Shown here one piece after another: positions 37,025 through 49,169 of a stretch of DNA of 64,000 bases. Where the stretch lies: NCBI GenBank assembly GCA_016617785.1, contig JADILM010000003.1:1054001-1118000 (forward strand). The letters run 5' to 3'. The stretch is from Sporobolomyces roseus. Lineage: Eukaryota > Basidiomycota > Microbotryomycetes > Sporidiobolales > Sporidiobolaceae. How positions within the stretch are numbered: the stretch's first letter is position 1; every line of letters begins with the position of its first letter. A program made the translations under genes and the position numbers. A model generated the notes under the pieces. That model searched no databases. It saw only the letters and a list, made by a program, of their open reading frames with translations, and was not told the DNA's origin.

Positions 37025-37838
37025 ATGCCTTTCAAGTCTCGCCATTCTTCTCGTCAAGTTCGCTCTTCGATACCTTCTCCTCCTTCAGGTGCGTATCACT
37101 GGCTCTCTACCTCTACGGGGGGGCAGTAGATTGATTGGAATGATGAGCACAGTTCCCTTTTTTCAGGCTCCGAACGGACTTTCCGTTCCCTTTCTTTCCA
37201 CTCAACCGATCAAAGGATACTTATACGTCTATACGAGAGAGTACCAAGAGTACTATAACCAAGGGATGGAGAGATTGGAGCAGGAGAAGGGGAAGGAATG
37301 GTCAGTTAAAAAGAGGGAATTCAAGGTGATCAAGGAGTGGGAGGTGAGTCTCGAACGCTATCCTATTGCTTGCTAAGTTTAGCTGATAAAGGGGTGTTTC
37401 GAGGATCACGGAAACAATGGTAGAAACGGAATAGGAATGACAATGCAGAACAAGAATCAATTTCGCAAGATGGAGACCTCTCGGAGAATGGTGCTGCTCT
37501 TTCGAAATCGGTGAGTGGTTGAAGCCATATGATCCATCACTGCTCAAGCTGATGGTCCAATCTCATGTTCCTCACAGATCACACACGAGAACTTTCTCAA
37601 TCTTCCCTCTCAAGGTCTCCATCTCTTCTTCGCAACCCTCCCTCTTCCTCTACCTCTTCATCCTCCTCCTCCGACCTCAACATTGCCCCTGAAGCCCGTG
37701 GTTCTCATCCCAACCACCTCCCTTCCTCGATCATGCACACCGTTTATTCAGAAGTTGGCAAGATGTATGAATCTCCCAGGAAGAAAGCTACCTCCTTCAT
37801 GCTCGACCCTCAACAAGATTTTGACGAAGCTGAAGTAG
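37025..37838 (+). CDS. Unknown protein ending at the inverted-repeat breakpoint
   Basis: The last three exons are clear and in phase: up to 37343, then 37424-37510 and 37578-37838 with TAG 37836-37838. They code SVPFLSTQPIKGYLYVYT, a charged helix EYYNQGMERLEQEKGKEW, an acidic linker and a proline/leucine-rich tail. The first exon is uncertain. Either the frame opens at ATG 37140 or 37143 (MSTVPFFQAP), or ATG 37025 (MPFKSRHSSRQ) is joined by a weak GTTCGC donor to 37167. No family is recognised. The last three codons lie inside the outer end of the left inverted-repeat arm (starts 37829), so the duplication that made the repeat broke at the end of this gene. Confidence 0.5.
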
Positions 37839-37961
37839 TGCAAGGGGGCGAGGGAAGCGTCGAGACGGAGATAAAGGGAGGAAGTGAGTCGCGATGGAGG
37901 TTCTACCAGAGTATTTCTGATACTGTACCTCTTCCACCGCTCTCTCTACATCACAAGTACA

Positions 37962-38112
37962 GTCAATATGGCCGAGTGGTCTAAGGCGCTGCATTCAAGC
38001 TACTAGCTCGTTCGCTATCCTATCCGTAGGAAAGTGATCAGCTTGCTTCCTCGACCTGTCGAGGGGAGTTTCGCAGTCATTATATGGCGTGGGTTCGAGT
38101 CCCACTATTGAC
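37962..38112 (+). tRNA. tRNA-Leu(CAA), intron-containing, copy 1
   Basis: The acceptor stem GTCAATA pairs with TATTGAC at the 3' end. D-arm is GCC-GAGTGGTCTAA-GGC. The anticodon loop TTCAAG is followed by an intron of about 67 nt, the 3' half of the anticodon stem (CGCAG, one mismatch), a long class II variable arm (CATTATATG) and T-arm GTGGG-TTCGAGT-CCCAC. A long variable arm with CAA fits Leu. No CCA is encoded. An identical copy is at 43684-43834 on the minus strand. Confidence 0.9.
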
Positions 38113-38757
38113 AATACCTTTTTGTCTCCTCGTGCTATCATCTGGCGGAGTCTTCAACTTTTGGATCAGAGGAAAAGGTCGACGGAAAAGGAAAGCGAAG
38201 GTGAAAATGCTCTTGGAGCACTTCTCGTAACTGTGTAAAAGATCCCTAGTTTCGTCGTTTCCTCGTAACGCACTCCTAGACTCAGAGTGTCTTGATAGCC
38301 ATTCCTCGTCGAGACAGTGAGCGCTTCACAACTGAACCAACCTCGAGATTAAAAATGTTCAATCCGAATTTCGAGCATTTCGACTTCAAACGTCCACGTC
38401 GCAGAGAGTTCTTTCTTCTCTACTGTGTACTTGACACATCCACACATGAGACTCCCTCAAAGTGCTTCATTTGTGTGCTTCTTCTCTAAGGTTTGCCTCC
38501 CATGACTTCTTGTTTCGCAGAAAAAGAGAAAACGAATTTCGATTGTAAAGGCCTCTGTATCTCGATACCAATCCAGCAGAGTTGTATCTTGCAAGGTTAG
38601 CCACCTGTACAGGACCCCGACTGGTCTTCAAAGGGACATCGAAGGAGAGGGAAGCACCTGAGAGAGAGGATTTTCTTTGCTCGTATCCTACGAAAAAATG
38701 AAGGACCTTATCCGTCTTCCCACTGTCTTCCCCCAGCGACGAGAGGCAAAAAGATAT

Positions 38758-38855
38758 GCTTTCACTCGGGTTCGAACCGAGGACCTTATCCGGCTTTAGA
38801 CGTCGACGAAGACGCTTTGTAAAGGAGACGTGATAACCAACTACACCATGAAAGC
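38758..38855 (-). tRNA. tRNA-Val(UAC), intron-containing, copy 1
   Basis: Read on the minus strand, GCTTTCA pairs with TGAAAGC. D-arm is GTGTAGTTGGTTATCAC and the anticodon loop is TTTACAA (UAC). An intron of about 25 nt follows position 37, then GGATA completes the anticodon stem with one C-T mismatch. The variable loop is AGGTC and the T-arm CTCGG-TTCGAAC-CCGAG. Total length 98 nt. Copy 2 (42941-43038, plus) is identical. Confidence 0.88.
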
Positions 38856-38866
38856 ATGAATTCTTG

Positions 38867-40031
38867 TCAAGACGCTCAAATCATGCACATCCGATCCGCC
38901 GCTCGCACCTCCGTCGAGTCTTCAGCCAAAATTTGAGTAGGAAGACAGGACACACTTTTTCGCTCCGAGAACGTCAACGAAGCTCTTTGGACCACTGACT
39001 GACGCAGGCATAGCTACAATCAGCTCGAACGCTCGTGGTCATGTCCAATCGATGGCACCAGAGTAAAGAACAGAGCTTCGGTTACAGACTTACCAGATTT
39101 TTCATTGTGAGTTTCGATCTCCCTGATACACTACCCTTGCACACTCACTACTGAGGTCGCAGATCTATGACCCTACAGACCAGCGTTCGAGTAGTTCAAG
39201 CTGGAGGAATATTCCGCTCGCTCTGGCTCTCTATTCTCCTTTGGAGTAGCGAAAGCGACCGGGTCTCGCGCATCAGAATCTATTTGTCTCTTCGCAGCTC
39301 CTCCATACACGAGGATCCGGACTTGGTGCGCTTTGACTCAAACTGAGCTCCTGACCCACGCCAGCGACGGAAGAAGTCTAATCCAAGCGTAACAATCTTC
39401 CTTCTTGCAGTCACGCTCTAAGAACGGTTCTAATACAGTCGGCCCGTCTTAGCCTTACATATCTCCGCCTTGTAGCCTGGCTCAGAAGCAGAAAAGAACG
39501 ACTTCTCCGCTGCTCTCAAACCGTCGATAATTCGATCGTTTTGCGTTCTCTGCAATGATTTTGTCTTCGTTCCCCGCGACGGTTTTCGAAACTCAGTGGT
39601 CTGACTTCTCTAGAGCTTGTCAAAAGTCGTCGGAAATGGACTCAAAGGCGAAGCGAAACGTCGGCGAGAGGAGACATCGAAACACCTGTCTTGATCGTTC
39701 TGATCGTTTCTCAGCTGAATGGCGACTAGTCAGCTCCGTCGCTCCGATTCACCCAGAATACAAGTTTATCGCTCGCGAAAGGGTGAAAGGACCAGGAATT
39801 GAGAATCCGTGCGAAATATCAAAAGTGAGAGACAAGTGAAAAATTGCGAAAATGGTTCATTCTTTGCTCGAGGGAGGGCGACCGGTAGCAGTGCAAGTTA
39901 TAAGCCTCTGTCTGCCATCATGAGTCAAGAGCTGGCGAAAGAGAGTGAGTGAAGTGAAGCGCCAGTTCGAATTCCTTTTCTGATTCACGCTCTCCACCAC
40001 GAAACATACGCTCGCTCTGGACCAGCTCAGA
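38867..40031. other. Left part of the inverted-repeat spacer, no supported gene
   Basis: An open frame at 39555-39839 (94 codons) ends with TGA but has no splice support and no recognisable content. The rest is free of long frames. Possibly decayed sequence plus the promoter of the F-box gene starting at 40032. Confidence 0.35.
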
Positions 40032-41718
40032 ATGTCACAGGCAGCACTTGAAGCAGTACCGGTAAGTGCCACAGCCATGTCTCGAGGTCCTATGCTCTCG
40101 CTGATGAAGTTTCTCGTCATCAGTCAACACCAAATCTTCCAGCTTCTACAGGCGATGAGAGCGATGGGAAAGAGTCACAGTCGATGGTAGAGCCCACAAA
40201 TGTATGCCCTTCCTGCCAAAGCCGGTCTCAGTTGCTAATTTCTCGCTCTCGTGAATCATTCAGATTGATCGCCTTTCCCTCCTTCCAAACGAAATTCTAC
40301 AGCAGATCTTCGATACCATTTACGATACGCCGCCGTATCGCCCTCCGACTGCTCTCATAGCTAAACGCTTCCTCCCCTTCCACACCCCCGGTCTTTACCG
40401 TAGAATCCACATCTCCCATCCTCTCTCGCTCGCTCTCCTCCTCTCTCGCATCAAGTCCGGTCCAGGCTTGGCAGAGCTCACCAGATCCCTCAGTATTGTG
40501 ATTGATCCCGACATGGACTACTACGGCGTCGAACTCCCATCGAAGGTCGAAATCGCACAGTTCTTCCGCTGTCTCGTCAACCTCGTCGTTCTCGATTTGA
40601 TGGATGCCTGCCCCGAAATAATGGAAGGATTTGCAGAACATCAGACTCAGGGAATACCCCTGCTCCATCTCCGGGAACTCTCAGCCAATCACTTCACAGC
40701 CTCTCGTCCTCTCTCCTCTTTCGCCCATTTGAACCTCACGCATCTCACCTCATTAACGATCCGGGACGACTTTCAACAAGAATGGAATATGTATCCGGAG
40801 CCTACGGATATCTTCGAGGGCTGTCACGATCTCCCATCCCTTTCCTCACTCGAAATTCATGGTCAATTCGCAGGAAGCACCGACTTGGCGAAACTCTGTC
40901 AATTCTGTCCTTCCCTTACCAGTCTCTCCCTCCTCAATCCCTCCGAGTCCTTCAACGCTGTTCTCTCTCTCCTCCCCACCTCCCTCACCAGTCTCAGTAT
41001 TTCAGACCATGGATTCAACAGCGAAGCCGATTTTTGTGATCACCTCCTCCCCCGCTTCACCAATCTTCGAACCCTCGATGTCGACACTTGTTTCTCGACT
41101 CACGTTACTCTCCACCTCTCAAGCTTGACTCGACTAGAGGAACTCGACATCGTCTTTGGGAACGAGGTTTTTGGCATAACCGACCTCGAACAGCTCATAG
41201 ACGGTCCGACTCGACTTCCTTCTCTCAGGTTACTCCGCTTCTATACAGACGAACGTTTGTCTGGTCTGGAGTTGGAGATCGACGGGGAAGGCGAGTTTGA
41301 AGGCAACTTCGATTGGGAAGGCGAGGTGGAACCCGAAGAATTTTATTTGAGGTTACCACGGTGCTACACAGACAGTAGGTGGAGTATCGAGGGTTTGCGC
41401 AGATTGATAACGTTGGCAGAGATGAATCGGATCCGTCTAGAAGGTGGGCAAAGGGCAATCAGTCAGATTCTCGAAGTGATCAACGCCTATGAACTCGAGG
41501 TCGCCAATTTTGCCATCTATCAAGCTTGGAAGACGAAGAATCTCGAGCGACTACAAATCAAACACCTTGCAGCAGCCACCCGTTCTCACTCTCGCTTCCC
41601 TTCCCTCGATTACGACACCCTCGATTCCAAGAATCTAAAACTCGTCAGGACTGAGTTGATCAAATGGTGTTTTAAGTTGACGCTGGAGAATGGTGGAGGT
41701 TTTGAATGGAGGAAGTGA
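40032..41718 (+). CDS. F-box / leucine-rich-repeat protein
   Basis: Exons 40032-40061, 40124-40201 and 40264-41718 give 520 aa. After a short polar start comes an F-box-like segment, IDRLSLLPNEILQQIFDTIY, with the classic LP-E-L-IF spacing. Irregular leucine-rich repeats follow for about 300 residues (LVNLVVLDLMDACPEI, HLRELSANHF, LTHLTSLTIRDD, FTNLRTLDVDTC, LTRLEELDIVFG). The C-terminus is helical and acidic. F-box proteins link targets to an SCF ubiquitin ligase through Skp1; the target is unknown. It sits alone between the two inverted-repeat arms, so its orientation could flip by recombination between them. Confidence 0.8.
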
Positions 41719-42929
41719 CAGGGTTTTCGAATGGAGAAACGAGTCGAGCGATCGAGAAACGGAGAAACGGCTTGTACGCGAGAGTAGAGGAGCATGCATG
41801 AACTGTTCAAATGGAATTACTTTTACCACCCCAATTCCTCGTCGTGATGTCGCCGGGAATTGCACAGCTTTGAAGCAGGATTGCGATTGATTCGACGGAC
41901 TTTGTCGCGATATCGTGTTTCATTCTCACTGAGGTTGTCTTAACTTCAGCTGGTTGAGACAGTGCTGTCAATTGAGGAAGCAAGTCACATTCCAGGAGTC
42001 TGTTAACGGGACAGAACGCGCTAGAATTCCGAGGCAGAAAGTCTAAATGCCTTGTCTTTGCTCATTCTCAGCAGGTCGATTAAAGAAGGGGTCCTGGTCT
42101 CGGGCCCTGATATCGAGATATACGGGCAAGATTGCGAAACTCTCGTGTTCGAGTTCACGAGTTCACAACGAGAGAGCCGCTTCGAAATTTGAGAAGACTG
42201 AGAGCTTGCATCTGCAATCCAATGACCCACAACAGGGCAGAGCTTGAACAGTAAAGTATGTTGTTGTTGTCGAATCAAACAGCAGGTCTGGAGGGGACAT
42301 GCTGGATCTCGACTTTGTTCGGCTATAGATTTTCGACGAACGAAGGGCGTATTCTGCCAGACCTCGGTACTTTCGATCCCTACTGTCTCGAGTTCTGGGA
42401 GCTATCACGTAGCGGGATTCTTGCTTGTCTGAAGACATTCGAATGGCTCAGTTGCGGACAAGACTTGTCCCTTTCGACTCTGACTGGTCTCTCTCTATGC
42501 AGATCTTACTACTGTCGTGCCTTCCTCCTTTCGATTGGTACTGGTCGAAGTGAAGAAGAAATGCAGGAAGACAACCAACGGGGAACGACGAAAAGGTCAG
42601 ATCGCTCGGACTGGTGAAGTTCCAAGTTCAGCTGTACCGTAGTTCCTCGTCTTCTCCTGCGCTTGTTCGACCGTGTACTCGACATGCCCGTGTCGAGACC
42701 ATCGCTGTAATCTATTCCCGCCCTGGCAAGCTTCGTCTAGACGGCGAGACGTTCGACCTGAGTTTTAGCTACTTGGGATGTGACATGGGACGACGAGGAG
42801 AAAATGTCTGAGGTATTGTGTGAGAGGCTCGAAAGTCACTGGGAGACGGAGTGGTGGCCGCGAAGGTGAGCGACACCTAGTTTGCCGAACGTAGTGTATT
42901 GTTGTATATGTCATAATTTAAGCCATTTC
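41719..42929. other. Right part of the inverted-repeat spacer, no supported gene
   Basis: A 119-codon open frame (42258-42617) contains a Leu/Cys-rich stretch, but I find no start context, splice sites or family. An internal AT-richer patch (about 42895-42925) lies beside the right arm. This may be decayed gene sequence. Confidence 0.35.
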
Positions 42930-42940
42930 CAAGAATCCAT

Positions 42941-43038
42941 GCTTTCATGGTGTAGTTGGTTATCACGTCTCCTTTACAAAGCGTCTTCGTCGACGTCTAA
43001 AGCCGGATAAGGTCCTCGGTTCGAACCCGAGTGAAAGC
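42941..43038 (+). tRNA. tRNA-Val(UAC), intron-containing, copy 2
   Basis: Identical to the 38758-38855 gene, in the right arm: acceptor GCTTTCA/TGAAAGC, anticodon loop TTTACAA with an intron of about 25 nt, T-arm CTCGG-TTCGAAC-CCGAG. Confidence 0.88.
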
Positions 43039-43683
43039 ATATCTTTTTGCCTCTCGTCGCTGGGGGAAGACAGTGGGAAGACGGATAAGGTCCTTCATTT
43101 TTTCGTAGGATACGAGCAAAGAAAATCCTCTCTCTCAGGTGCTTCCCTCTCCTTCGATGTCCCTTTGAAGACCAGTCGGGGTCCTGTACAGGTGGCTAAC
43201 CTTGCAAGATACAACTCTGCTGGATTGGTATCGAGATACAGAGGCCTTTACAATCGAAATTCGTTTTCTCTTTTTCTGCGAAACAAGAAGTCATGGGAGG
43301 CAAACCTTAGAGAAGAAGCACACAAATGAAGCACTTTGAGGGAGTCTCATGTGTGGATGTGTCAAGTACACAGTAGAGAAGAAAGAACTCTCTGCGACGT
43401 GGACGTTTGAAGTCGAAATGCTCGAAATTCGGATTGAACATTTTTAATCTCGAGGTTGGTTCAGTTGTGAAGCGCTCACTGTCTCGACGAGGAATGGCTA
43501 TCAAGACACTCTGAGTCTAGGAGTGCGTTACGAGGAAACGACGAAACTAGGGATCTTTTACACAGTTACGAGAAGTGCTCCAAGAGCATTTTCACCTTCG
43601 CTTTCCTTTTCCGTCGACCTTTTCCTCTGATCCAAAAGTTGAAGACTCCGCCAGATGATAGCACGAGGAGACAAAAAGGTATT

Positions 43684-43834
43684 GTCAATAGTGGGACTCG
43701 AACCCACGCCATATAATGACTGCGAAACTCCCCTCGACAGGTCGAGGAAGCAAGCTGATCACTTTCCTACGGATAGGATAGCGAACGAGCTAGTAGCTTG
43801 AATGCAGCGCCTTAGACCACTCGGCCATATTGAC
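43684..43834 (-). tRNA. tRNA-Leu(CAA), intron-containing, copy 2
   Basis: Identical to 37962-38112, on the minus strand. It has the same 151-nt length, GTCAATA/TATTGAC acceptor stem, CAA anticodon, intron and long variable arm. Confidence 0.9.
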
Positions 43835-44236
43835 TGTACTTGTGATGTAGAGAGAGCGGTGGAAGAGGTACAGTATCAGAAATACTCTGGTAGAACCTCC
43901 ATCGCGACTCACTTCCTCCCTTTATCTCCGTCTCGACGCTTCCCTCGCCCCCTTGCACTACTTCAGCATCCTGCCTGAGTGTCGCTTCCTGTTTCCAAAC
44001 GCTGCTCGTCAGGGTTTCGCTCGAAGAATATAAATTTTCGCAACAAAGTCACAAGGGCGGTTCGTACAGTCCTCCCTTCCCTAAGCACTGTACGGTACAC
44101 AACCAGTCGCTACCTCCTCGCAAACGAAACAAGTGTAAAGTCACTTTAGCCGACATCTAAGCGACCAACTCGAATCTTTCTCTCTCCTCTCTTCTCTCTC
44201 CTTCAGCTTCTCCCCTCAACAAAACACTCACCAAAG

Positions 44237-45699
44237 ATGGAACCAGAGGCGAGTATCATGCCTCACAAACGACAGACTTCGACCGCCGCTTCCTTGATCT
44301 CGGGTTCAATGGGAGGAATGTCCCAAGTTTTAGTCGGTCAACCCCTCGACACTATCAAAACCAGGGCACAAACTGCGGCGAGGGGTCAGTTCAAGGGTCC
44401 ACTAGATATCGCCATGCAGACTATCAAGAAGGAAGGCTTCTTCGCTCTTTACAAAGGTGAGATTCATCTTCGTAACTCTCTACAAAGCCCTCGCTGACCT
44501 TCAGAGGCGTGCGATAGGCATGTCGAGTCCTTTAATCGGTATTGCGGGAGTCAACTCGCTGCTGTTCGCTTCCAACAATTACGCTCGAAAGATCGTTTCT
44601 CCTTTCCCCGACCTCTCCATTCCTCAGGTTATGCTAGCTGGATCAATGGCTGGTGCAGTACAATCGGTCTTGGCTAGTCCAGTAGAGATGTTCAAGGCGA
44701 GTCGTTTCTTTCTCGAGCGAACGAGGCTTTCGCTCATTTCGACTTTTCTTCGTAATTAGGTTCGAATGCAAGCGAATCAGTCAATAAACCCGAAAGGGCT
44801 TCGACAGGTAGTAGGAGAGATGTATGAGAAGTATGGATGGAAGAAGGGAATCATGCGAGGATACTGGGTACGCCGCATTTCAAGATTTTGACGAAGCGAG
44901 ATCACTAATCTCTCCTTCCGTAGATCACGGTTGTTCGAGAGATTCCCGCTTATGCTGGTGCGTCTGAATCTCTTATCGTACAAGAGAGTTGAAGCTGACG
45001 GCTCGAAGTTCTTCAGGTTTCTATGCTGGATATGAATACTCGAAGAGATCGTTACAGAAGAGCTTGGGAACCCAAACTCTGCCAGTGTGGGCTACTCTGA
45101 CTGCTGGAGGTATCGGAGGGCTTGCTTACTGGACTGCTTGGTAAGCTTTCATTCCCTCACAACTCAACGAGGAGTCATATTGAGTCTAGTTCGATGTGTT
45201 TCACGAGCAGCTACCCTCTCGGTAGGTCTTCCTTCCCGCTTGTTGCACTTTGCTGCTGGTTCTGACTCAATCTATTTGGCGTAGACGTCGTCAAATCACG
45301 GATTCAGTTTGCAGAAGCACCTCCGCAAGGAGCAAACTATATCATCAACACTTTCCGCGATATTTATCGAAGAGAAGGAGCACGAGCATTCGTTGCTGGT
45401 CTCGCCCCTACTTGTATGCGACTGCATCTCGTACTTCCTCTCTCTCCCTCACTGACGACATCCTTCGCTGTTCTGCAGATATTCGAGCGTACGTTCTCCG
45501 AAGTTTGTCTTCTCGGCTCGCAAAGCTGATTAGGTCGTTCTATTTCTTCACAGTGTTCCTGCGGCAGCTTCTACTGTAAGTCTCCATGCCTGAACTATTT
45601 CAGGAGAATCGTACAGCTGATCGAGATTCTTTCGTTGCTTTTCAGTTTGTCGCTTTCGAAATTACGATGGAACTCTTGCAAAAGAACACGAACCTGTAG
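44237..45699 (+). CDS. Mitochondrial carrier protein (SLC25 family)
   Basis: Ten exons: 44237-44456, 44518-44696, 44760-44867, 44924-44957, 45017-45140, 45211-45221, 45285-45413, 45479-45488, 45554-45575 and 45646-45699, giving 296 aa. Three carrier repeats are seen, each with its signature: QPLDTIKTRAQ, SPVEMFKVRMQ and YPLDVVKSRIQ, plus the matching second motifs (EGFFALYKG, YGWKKGIMRGYW, EGARAFVAGL). The carrier probably sits in the mitochondrial inner membrane and exchanges metabolites. Features such as GYEYSKRSL suggest the basic amino-acid or acylcarnitine branch, but the substrate cannot be read from here. Exons of 11 and 10 nt occur, and the intron after 44696 starts with GC. Confidence 0.9.
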
Positions 45700-46298: not shown

Positions 46299-49169
46299 AT
46301 GTCTGCACCTTCGATTCAATATGCGAGTACGTGGAACCACTCAGCTCAGCTCTCTGACTACTATGAGGGTCTCGTTAGCTGACTAGCTGTTGTTGTCGTT
46401 GAATTACAGCTCGTTCGCTCAAGCAATTAGGTTTGATCAACGGTACTCCTTCATGGCAACCAGTCGCTCAATTTCAAAAGTGAGTATACTCTCGAATCGA
46501 ATACAGGAGCTGCAGAGGGAATAGGCTAGTTGGAAAGTTAGAGAGGGAGAGAGCGAAAACACCTAGAAAGTCGTGTCGAAGAAAGGGGTCTCTGACAGTT
46601 CAGAACGAGGGCGTCGTACTATAGAAGTCTGAGATGGATTAGGAAGAGTCCAGAAGCCAGATAGAACGATTCGAATGGATCGGATTGATGCATCATAGAC
46701 TCGATGGATAATGAATGAGGAGGTCAACGTTCGGTACAATGTACTAATCGTTGGTTGTGCTCTCGTTCACAGACCTGAAGGCGCCGTCAAGGTATACCGA
46801 TACTCTGCAGATGGACGATTCTTCGCTTCAGTGACCAGCGCGAGGTTCGTTTCTCAATCCCCTATCTCCCCTCCTCTGCCTGCTGTCATGCTGAACACGC
46901 TCTCTACTTTGGCAGCGTGCAAATTCTCGACGCTGCGACTGCTGCAGTAGTTACCGACATCCCCGTCAAGTCTGTTATCGACATTTCTTTCTCTCCCAAA
47001 GGAACTCAACTGCAAACTTGGGAACGACAAGGTTTGTTTCGATACCCACGAGGTCGTGTGAACCTACATGAGCTGATATGGAAACTATTACAGTGAAACC
47101 GGCCGATGGAGAACCACCTCATCGCAATCTTCGAGTTTTCGATGTCGCTACTGGTCAAGAAATCGCTAGTTTCTCGCAAAAGTCGATCGAAGGCTGGTAT
47201 GTCGTTGACTTTCTCTGGTGATCCTGTCCGGCGCGAGACTGACTGATGAATGGATGCGACACAGGGAGATCCAATATTCCGAAGACGAGGCAAAGGCTGT
47301 TCGATGCGTTACAAATGAGATGCACGTGTACAACCCTTCATCTTGGGATCAGGGTATTGCCGAGAAGCTGCGACTTGAGGGAATCACGAGTGTCAGTATC
47401 TCTCCCGGACGAGCACCTAGTGTCGCAGCTTTCGTCGCAGAGAAGAAGGTAAGTGATTTTGGCTTGCCTCATTTCACGACGAGTACTCATCCGCTCCTTT
47501 CGAACATACAGGGTGCTCCCGCTTCCGTCAAGATTCACTCTCTCCTCGCTCTCGCTTCTCCATCGTGCTCGAAAACTTTCTACAAAGCCGACAAGATTCA
47601 GATGAAGTGGAACAAGACTGGCAGCAATCTTCTCTTCCTGACGCAGACCGATGTCGATAAGACCGGGAAATCGTACTATGGAGAAACGAATCTTTACTTG
47701 ATGAACGCTGCTGGTCAATTCGATTGTCGAGTAACTCTCGGTACGTTTCTCTCTCGATCAGCCTCCTCGTTTGCGAGCGGTTCTGACCGAATTCTGGTGA
47801 AATCTGCAGACAAGGAAGGAGGTATCCATGACTTCGCTTGGTCTCCCAATGATCGAGAATTTGCAGTCACTTACGGATGTACGTTTTCCTGTTCTTTTAT
47901 CGAAGTAGATGTCGGAACGATGCTGAACCCTTCCTTTTCAATATAGATATGCCCGCAAAGACTGTCATTTTCGATGCTCGCGTCAAGATCATCAACGATT
48001 TCGGAACAAACCCTCGCAACTTCCTCTCTTACAACCCTCAAGGACGTCTCCTCTGTATCGCTGGATTCGGTAATCTCGCTGGACAAGTCGACGTATGGGA
48101 CAGACAAACTCTCAAGAAGGTCACCACTATCGATGCTCCCAATACGGTGCACTGCGAGTGGAGTCCCGATGGTCGATACCTTCTCTGCGCCACTCTCAGT
48201 CCTAGGTTACGAGTCGACAATGGTATCAAGGTGTTCCATTTCACTGGTGGACTCATGCATACCGATTCGATCGAAGAACTGTATCAAGTGAGCTCTCCTT
48301 TCTTGACGCTTTCTCGGTTTCGTTCGAATCTGACTTTCATTGATTTTAGGCTTCATGGAGACCTGCGAATCCTGGTTTCTGGCCCATGAGTGGACCTCTC
48401 GATCCTCCTCCTACGTCTTCGATCGCTGTTGCTGCCGCTCCTACGTCGAAACCGGCGAGTAAGTCGAATTCAATTCTCGATTTCGACTTTTTTTTTTGGG
48501 GAAACTGACAACCTCGATTCGTTGTAGCTGCCGGTGGCGCTTACCGACCTCCTCATGCACGAGGGACTCTTACACCCACCGTTTACAAGCGTGAGGATGA
48601 AGGAGGAGCCGCTTATGATTCGTCGAACGGCACCAATCCTTTCCCTCACTCTGGCGGCAACAACGGTCGAGAGGGAACTCCTGGAGGATTCGCTGCTCGA
48701 GGTGCTCGAAGAGGTATTCCAGGTGCTCCTCCACCTGGCGCTCCCGTCAACGCTGAAGATCCTTTGGCAAATCGACGCAAGAAGAAGGGAGGAGACAAGA
48801 AGGGGAAAGGAAACAACAAAGGTCAGCAACAACAGGAGGATGGAACTGGATCCTCAACACCAGCTAGTGGAACCGCTACTCCTGTTCCTGTACCCGAACT
48901 CCCTCCTCCTGTTCCCGAAGTACCCGTCGAAGCGAGTCTCTCACCTGAAGATAAGAAACGTCGAGCGATCGTCAAAAAGTTGACGGCTATCGAACAACTC
49001 AAGTCGAAGAAGGCTGCAGGAGAAAAGCTCGAACTCACTCAACATAAGAAACTCGAAAGGTAAGCAGCTTCATTTCGAACTCTGTCGTCGTTCTCGCTGA
49101 CACCGTTCACTCTGCATGGCGCACAGTGAGGTCGAATTACGCAAAGAACTCGACGCCCTTTCGAAGTAG
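46299..49169 (+). CDS. EIF2A: Eukaryotic translation initiation factor 2A (eIF2A)
   Basis: Twelve exons sum to 631 aa: 46299-46326, 46410-46479, 46773-46844, 46916-47031, 47094-47196, 47265-47448, 47512-47740, 47810-47878, 47947-48287, 48350-48458, 48528-49059 and 49127-49169. The N-terminal two thirds form a WD-like beta-propeller: VYRYSADGRFFAS, KSVIDISFSPKGTQLQTWER, KIQMKWNKTGSNLLFLTQTD, GGIHDFAWSPNDREFAVTYG, NPRNFLSYNPQGRLLCIAGF and VHCEWSPDGRYLL, followed by ASWRP. These match eIF2A closely. The tail is Pro/Gly-rich with YRPPHARGT, then Lys-rich helices near the stop. eIF2A can deliver initiator tRNA to the 40S subunit in certain non-canonical starts. The second intron is unusually long (293 nt). 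The identification is strong. Confidence 0.93.

Follow-up and report, generated by a model that had tools for sequence, protein, structure and literature searches.

A tRNA-bearing inverted repeat around a gene-bearing spacer belongs to a genome-wide class of about ten such repeats in a basidiomycete yeast

Homogenised inverted repeats that carry tRNA genes are already known from ascomycete centromeres, and inverted repeats that enclose genes are known from the flip/flop region of Saccharomyces. The barriers of cen1 in Schizosaccharomyces pombe are 1.7 kb long, 100% identical and each equipped with tDNA-Ala and tDNA-Glu (PMC4059236), and about 32% of the tRNA genes of S. octosporus and S. cryophilus lie in centromere regions (PMC6538654). 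The centromeres of Pichia kudriavzevii have arms of several kilobases, about 99% identical, around a unique core, with 21 centromeric tRNA genes (PMC6053246), and those of Candida tropicalis also place arms of several kilobases around a unique core (PMC4741521). On Saccharomyces chromosome XIV, continual homogenisation acts on nearly identical inverted repeats of 4 kb, and the 24-kb segment that they enclose re-inverts (PMC9731477). Here we describe an inverted repeat with two tRNA genes in each arm, found in a 64-kb stretch of a basidiomycete yeast genome (the window, C3:1054001-1118000, in an assembly of 22.4 Mb and 15 contigs, C1-C15). About ten inverted repeats with tRNA genes in their arms, this one included, are scattered over the genome. 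The features of the locus, in window coordinates, are as follows.

37829..38866, plus strand: left arm, 1038 bp; aligned to the reverse complement of 42930-43967 with 1 mismatch (38859) and 0 gaps
37962..38113, plus strand: left copy of a tRNA gene with intron, Leu(CAA) by eye; Rfam RF00005, 42.7 bits; ARAGORN label SeC(tca)
38756..38856, minus strand: left copy of tRNA-Val(UAC) with a 25-nt intron; ARAGORN; Rfam 49.5 bits (38757-38855)
38867..42929, no strand: unique spacer, 4063 bp, GC (guanine plus cytosine) 0.502
40255..41718, plus strand: LRR-like open frame, 487 codons (401 from the first ATG, at 40513), the sole long frame in the spacer
42930..43967, minus strand: right arm, 1038 bp, aligned to the left arm
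42940..43040, plus strand: right copy of tRNA-Val(UAC) with a 25-nt intron; ARAGORN; Rfam (42941-43039)
43683..43834, minus strand: right copy of the tRNA gene with intron, Leu(CAA) by eye; Rfam RF00005, 42.7 bits

The sequence-only reading had described arms that pair base for base with a single mismatch near the inner end, and alignment bears this out: the coordinates sum to 81796 at each paired base, the only mismatch falls at 38859, and the alignment needs no indel. The repeat search stretches the arms to 1041 nt by passing a second mismatch at 37828. The arm ends are sharp, BLAST similarity stopping past both of them; alignment of the outer flanks against shuffles found no residual homology, and past the inner edges there is a weak similarity, scoring 30 where 200 shuffles reached at most 28, that came from one of ten flank tests and is not used as support. 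The arm is the sole repeat of at least 60 bases in the window (repeat search, seed 18), and when searched against its own genome it matched two places, both at this locus. Chance can be ruled out as the origin of the match, 1038 bp of identity being far too long. Selection on the tRNAs alone is ruled out as its cause by the 785 bp of each arm that lie outside the tRNA genes, in agreement with the earlier claim; the figure of about 645 bp of identical non-tRNA DNA given at that time holds for the middle part, the 642 bp separating the two tRNA genes, and not for the total.

The arms share with fission-yeast centromeres the arrangement of identical inverted segments, carrying a tRNA pair or cluster, on either side of a core (PMC4059236, PMC6538654). 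Unlike those centromeres, the core in the window contains a gene, a centromere-like element lies elsewhere on the same contig (at 252 kb), several loci occur per contig (two on C7) and the host is a basidiomycete. The centromeres of P. kudriavzevii and C. tropicalis, one per chromosome and described as having no protein genes, differ from the window in the gene of its spacer and are closer to the loci on C5, C7 and C12 introduced below. The flip/flop region is similar to the window in that inverted repeats flank a gene-bearing segment outside a centromere core, although its arms carry sporulation genes where those of the window carry tRNA genes, and inversion is proven there and a prediction at the window (PMC9731477). 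Inverted arms of about 1 kb or longer with more than 99% identity outside selected genes are one mark of gene-converting palindromes, and the window arms show it; the inverted arms of Y-chromosome palindromes are kept alike by intrachromosomal gene conversion, but they lie on sex-limited chromosomes and hold mostly testis-expressed protein genes (PMC3403216).

Each arm had been read as holding intron-bearing genes for tRNA-Leu(CAA) and tRNA-Val(UAC). ARAGORN called no tRNA gene in the arms outside its intron mode; in intron mode it called Val(TAC) and labelled the other gene SeC(TCA) with a 73-nt intron. The valine gene is thus confirmed by ARAGORN and Rfam, and the other is confirmed as a tRNA gene by Rfam and judged to be Leu(CAA) from its anticodon loop, TTCAAGC, as read by eye. 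The SeC label was rejected as a mis-split of this Leu(CAA) gene. Both arm edges are upstream of the neighbouring tRNA gene, the inner one at 10 bp from tRNA-Val and the outer one at 133 bp from tRNA-Leu. When the T-arm and acceptor end were searched for over the whole genome as 24- and 25-nt patterns with up to 3 mismatches allowed, each pattern matched the two arms only; by this pattern test, the arms carry the only detectable tRNA-Leu(CAA) and tRNA-Val(UAC) genes of the genome.

The window locus is not alone. A genome tRNA search, in which 63 of 1095 candidates were scored, gave tRNA matches in opposite orientation and 6-10 kb apart on C1, C5, C7 and C12. Thirteen other tRNA regions (200 kb fetched) were then compared with themselves and with the window, and tRNA-bearing inverted repeats were present in four of these regions read as DNA, with arms of 1.5-9 kb and 91.6-99.9% identity; the four in thirteen is a biased rate, the regions having been picked for strong tRNA matches, paired ones included. 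These four sister repeats are:

C5: 6.4-kb arms, 99.8% identity, 2.46-kb core, six tRNAs per arm
C7: 2.9-kb arms, 99.5% identity, 2.49-kb core, two tRNAs per arm
C12: arms of 8.8 and 9.4 kb that differ by a 0.65-kb insertion, segments of 99.5-99.9% identity, 3.0-kb core
C1 (C1:780484-787538): 1.5-kb arms, 91.6% identity, 4.0-kb core

The C12 repeat (C12:691623-712832) is a nested palindrome: each arm encloses a smaller inverted repeat of 893 bp that bears Ser, Thr and Val tRNAs, giving four near-identical copies. Two frames lie in the C1 core, one F-box-like (sub-threshold) and the other of hexapeptide-transferase type. Related segments on C4 lie 9 kb apart in direct orientation and about 110 kb apart in inverted orientation.

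To the whole genome we applied a T-arm-plus-terminator pattern, which gave 148 hits (37 with the reversed pattern, used as control in place of an unselected genomic block), and a variant pattern, which gave 100 (control 67), so that about two thirds of the variant-pattern hits are expected by chance. After removal of nested duplicate rows (3 of 148, 1 of 100 for the variant and 1 of 69 for the reversed pattern), 244 hits were kept; neither pattern picks up tRNA genes whose T-arm or terminator differs from it. Pairs at most 25 kb apart and of equal matched length numbered 62 in inverted and 20 in direct orientation, and the 68 hits of the reversed pattern formed no inverted and no direct pair under the same criteria. 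Nine loci contain at least two markers whose mirror sums agree to within 3 bp, so that their arms must be nearly free of net indels: one each on C2, C3 (the window), C5, C6, C8, C11 and C12, and two on C7. With C1 this makes ten loci in all, five of which (C2, C6, the second on C7, C8 and C11) are known by coordinates alone. Pairs assigned by hand place a single inverted pair at 13 further loci, part of which must be chance given the expected share of chance hits for the variant pattern, and a single direct pair at three; a near pair on C10 (632769/644318, lengths 36 and 35) was left out of the count. The nine multi-marker loci contain 60 hits, about 43% of the approximately 140 hits expected to be real. 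On C14 and C15 the same tRNA set is repeated every 28 kb or so, which looks like unresolved multimers of a mitochondrial genome.

The identity of the arms had been attributed either to a recent duplication or to gene conversion. The distribution of differences in three of the four sister repeats (C1, C5 and C7) fits better with homogenisation of old repeats than with recent duplication, an argument that bears on the window indirectly. The C1 arm has no substitution in its outer 500 bp and 104 in the remaining 1 kb (p 8e-19 if uniform), and the clean outer tract looks like a conversion tract within an old repeat. On C7, the outermost 265 bp of the 2941-bp arm hold seven of nine substitutions, and related but decayed sequence continues past the arms (score 89 against a best of 30 in 200 shuffles). 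On C5, three of seven substitutions fall in the outermost 31 of 6404 bp. Such edge-biased differences on C5 and C7 would be expected if conversion homogenised the middles of the arms and reached their edges less often. The lone mismatch of the window lies 8 bp from the inner edge, a position with a chance of 0.015. One outer edge on C1 lies inside a tRNA-Lys gene whose other copy is truncated; for all other edges of these sister repeats the closest tRNA gene is 150-1541 bp away, and therefore tRNA genes do not generally set the arm edges.

The spacer offers a further, indirect indication of age. Its enclosed gene had been labelled an F-box gene, a label that Pfam did not confirm: the frame at 40255-41718 gives LRR matches alone, all under the curated cut-off. 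A protein search returned seven matches to it with E <= 0.001. Sporobolomyces roseus JCM5353_009042 ranks first, with 85% identity over 83% of the query, and two further named matches are from Sporobolomyces at 27-29% identity, so that by protein similarity the genome belongs to Sporobolomyces or a close neighbour. JCM5353_009042 sits on a contig of 4201 bp, against 4063 bp for the spacer. A contig of this length corresponds to the spacer plus short overhangs, since a short-read assembly would break at the same arms if S. roseus has them, and this suggests that the arms may predate the species split.

Considering these data together, we regard it as probable that the window arms began as a tRNA gene pair duplicated in inverted orientation and are kept alike by intrachromosomal homologous recombination; the repeat itself has about nine counterparts in the genome. 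The inverted duplication of the pair would have arisen first, perhaps by template switching at a replication fork paused by the tRNA genes. Repair of one arm from the other would then make the tRNAs, their introns and the intervening DNA evolve in concert, a process that at the window locus itself is extrapolated from the sister loci. An occasional crossover in place of conversion would invert the 4.1-kb spacer with its gene, and it is plausible that recombination between the arms could flip this segment. The tRNA genes may promote arm formation or recombination, for example as fork-pausing sites, and selection may retain both copies, given that these are the only tRNA-Leu(CAA) and tRNA-Val(UAC) genes found by pattern.

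Several observations weigh against this account. Nine of the 13 regions have no inverted repeat inside the stretch that was read. The single mismatch at the window cannot separate conversion from recency; C12, where two of nine substitutions fall in the roughly 90 bp next to the inner edge, has no clear edge clustering, and the edge tests used widths picked after looking at the data. The 4201 bp of the S. roseus contig are one number from a draft assembly, in which another S. roseus protein among the matches lies on 19,447 bp, and the contig argument is not repeatable on C12, where the homologues of the arm protein are two proteins whose contigs measure 2402 and 1220 bp.

The alternative that survives best is a recent inverted duplication, in which the left segment was copied in reverse orientation 4 kb away, during break repair or by a replication template switch, and has had too little time since then to diverge from its copy; no homogenisation is required. 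It would account for one difference in 1038 bp, for the sharp arm ends and for outer flanks that share no residual homology. It would also suit an open frame across the outer edge of the left arm, as though the right arm were a truncated copy:

37553..37984, plus strand: open frame spanning the outer edge of the left arm, 143 codons

This frame is possibly the last exon of a gene, in which case the left arm would be the original; Pfam returned no match for it, and no homologue turned up for a guessed spliced form of the gene. Right of the repeat, Pfam recognises mitochondrial-carrier and eIF2A exons (44150-45529 and 47209-47946). Recency would, however, be needed at all of the roughly ten loci; the clean tract on C1 adjoins 10% divergence, decayed homology extends beyond the C7 arms, and the S. 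roseus contig points, indirectly, to arms older than the species split. For the window we give a purely recent origin clearly less weight than maintenance by recombination.

Two other explanations appear very improbable. A fold-back or misjoin could have doubled the arm during assembly, and the repeated tRNA set of C14 and C15 indicates an assembly that was incompletely cleaned, but fold-backs would have neither a unique 4-kb spacer nor a tie to tRNA genes, the sister arms diverge by up to about 8% (C1) and the pattern recurs at about ten loci with different spacers. Some mobile elements insert next to tRNA genes, and the inner edges 10 bp upstream of tRNA-Val could recall a cassette inverted by a dedicated recombinase or a tRNA-targeting mobile element; against this highly unlikely origin, none of seven neighbourhood open frames (one in the spacer; small frames were outside the search) matches a recombinase or transposase in Pfam, the sister edges other than on C1 keep the distances from tRNA genes given above, and the edges of five repeats have no obvious common motif by eye.

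The similarity to ascomycete centromeres raises the question of whether some members of the class are centromeric. Two noncoding elements are shared between loci:

C5:185278-185477 and C5:188392-188591: element of about 200 bp, in both arms
C12:701409-701609: element of about 200 bp
C11:75591-75724: element of about 200 bp
C10:836848-836979: element of about 200 bp
C4:141452-141629: element of about 200 bp
C3:251889-251944: element of about 200 bp, at 252 kb
C7:190112-190382, with a mirror copy: element of about 270 bp
C12:699868-700133 and C12:703670-703935: element of about 270 bp
C8:1546119-1546330 and C8:1550478-1550689: element of about 270 bp
C6:128-412: element of about 270 bp
C5:1876531-1876800: element of about 270 bp

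The first element occurs at one locus on each of C3, C4, C5, C10, C11 and C12 and lies inside a tRNA inverted repeat on C5, C11 and C12; the second is found in the repeats on C7, C8 and C12 and near the ends of C5 and C6. The element of about 200 bp is a candidate centromere element or old retroelement end, and both elements could equally be old retroelement ends. A U2 spliceosomal RNA gene (C10:832952-833145; Rfam 137.8 bits) lies beside a tRNA-Thr, about 4 kb from the C10 copy of the first element. The cores on C5, C7 and C12 have a longest open frame of at most 171 codons and GC of 0.461-0.475, and the C12 arms carry longer open frames. These sister loci resemble inverted-repeat centromeres, a resemblance that does not extend to the window locus. 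Searches with neither element matched the window locus, and its candidacy as an inverted-repeat centromere was rejected on this ground and on that of the gene at 40255-41718 in its core. Given that C7 has two multi-marker loci, a rule of one per chromosome is doubtful for the class as a whole; C3 has the first element besides the window locus, and contigs may not equal chromosomes.

A broader possibility, which we put forward tentatively and consider less likely than the account of the window locus given above, is a genome-wide, self-homogenising system of tRNA repeats that holds very roughly 40-60% of the nuclear tRNA genes. Its subset on C5, C7, C8, C11 and C12, where the two shared elements occur, might be centromeres that resemble those of fission yeasts but evolved separately, and its other members, including the window locus, might be gene-bearing and flippable. 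In the open-access literature, as distinct from subscription journals and preprint servers, we found no genome described with many scattered repeats of this kind holding a large share of its tRNA genes.

If the proposed account is true, it would explain why tRNA genes that are otherwise single persist in a yeast as two identical copies, and the repeats would serve as a natural experiment on tRNA genes as possible drivers of inverted duplication and concerted evolution. They would also provide candidate centromeres for a red yeast. Should the division into two subsets be true as well, tRNA genes would shape both chromosome structure and gene orientation.

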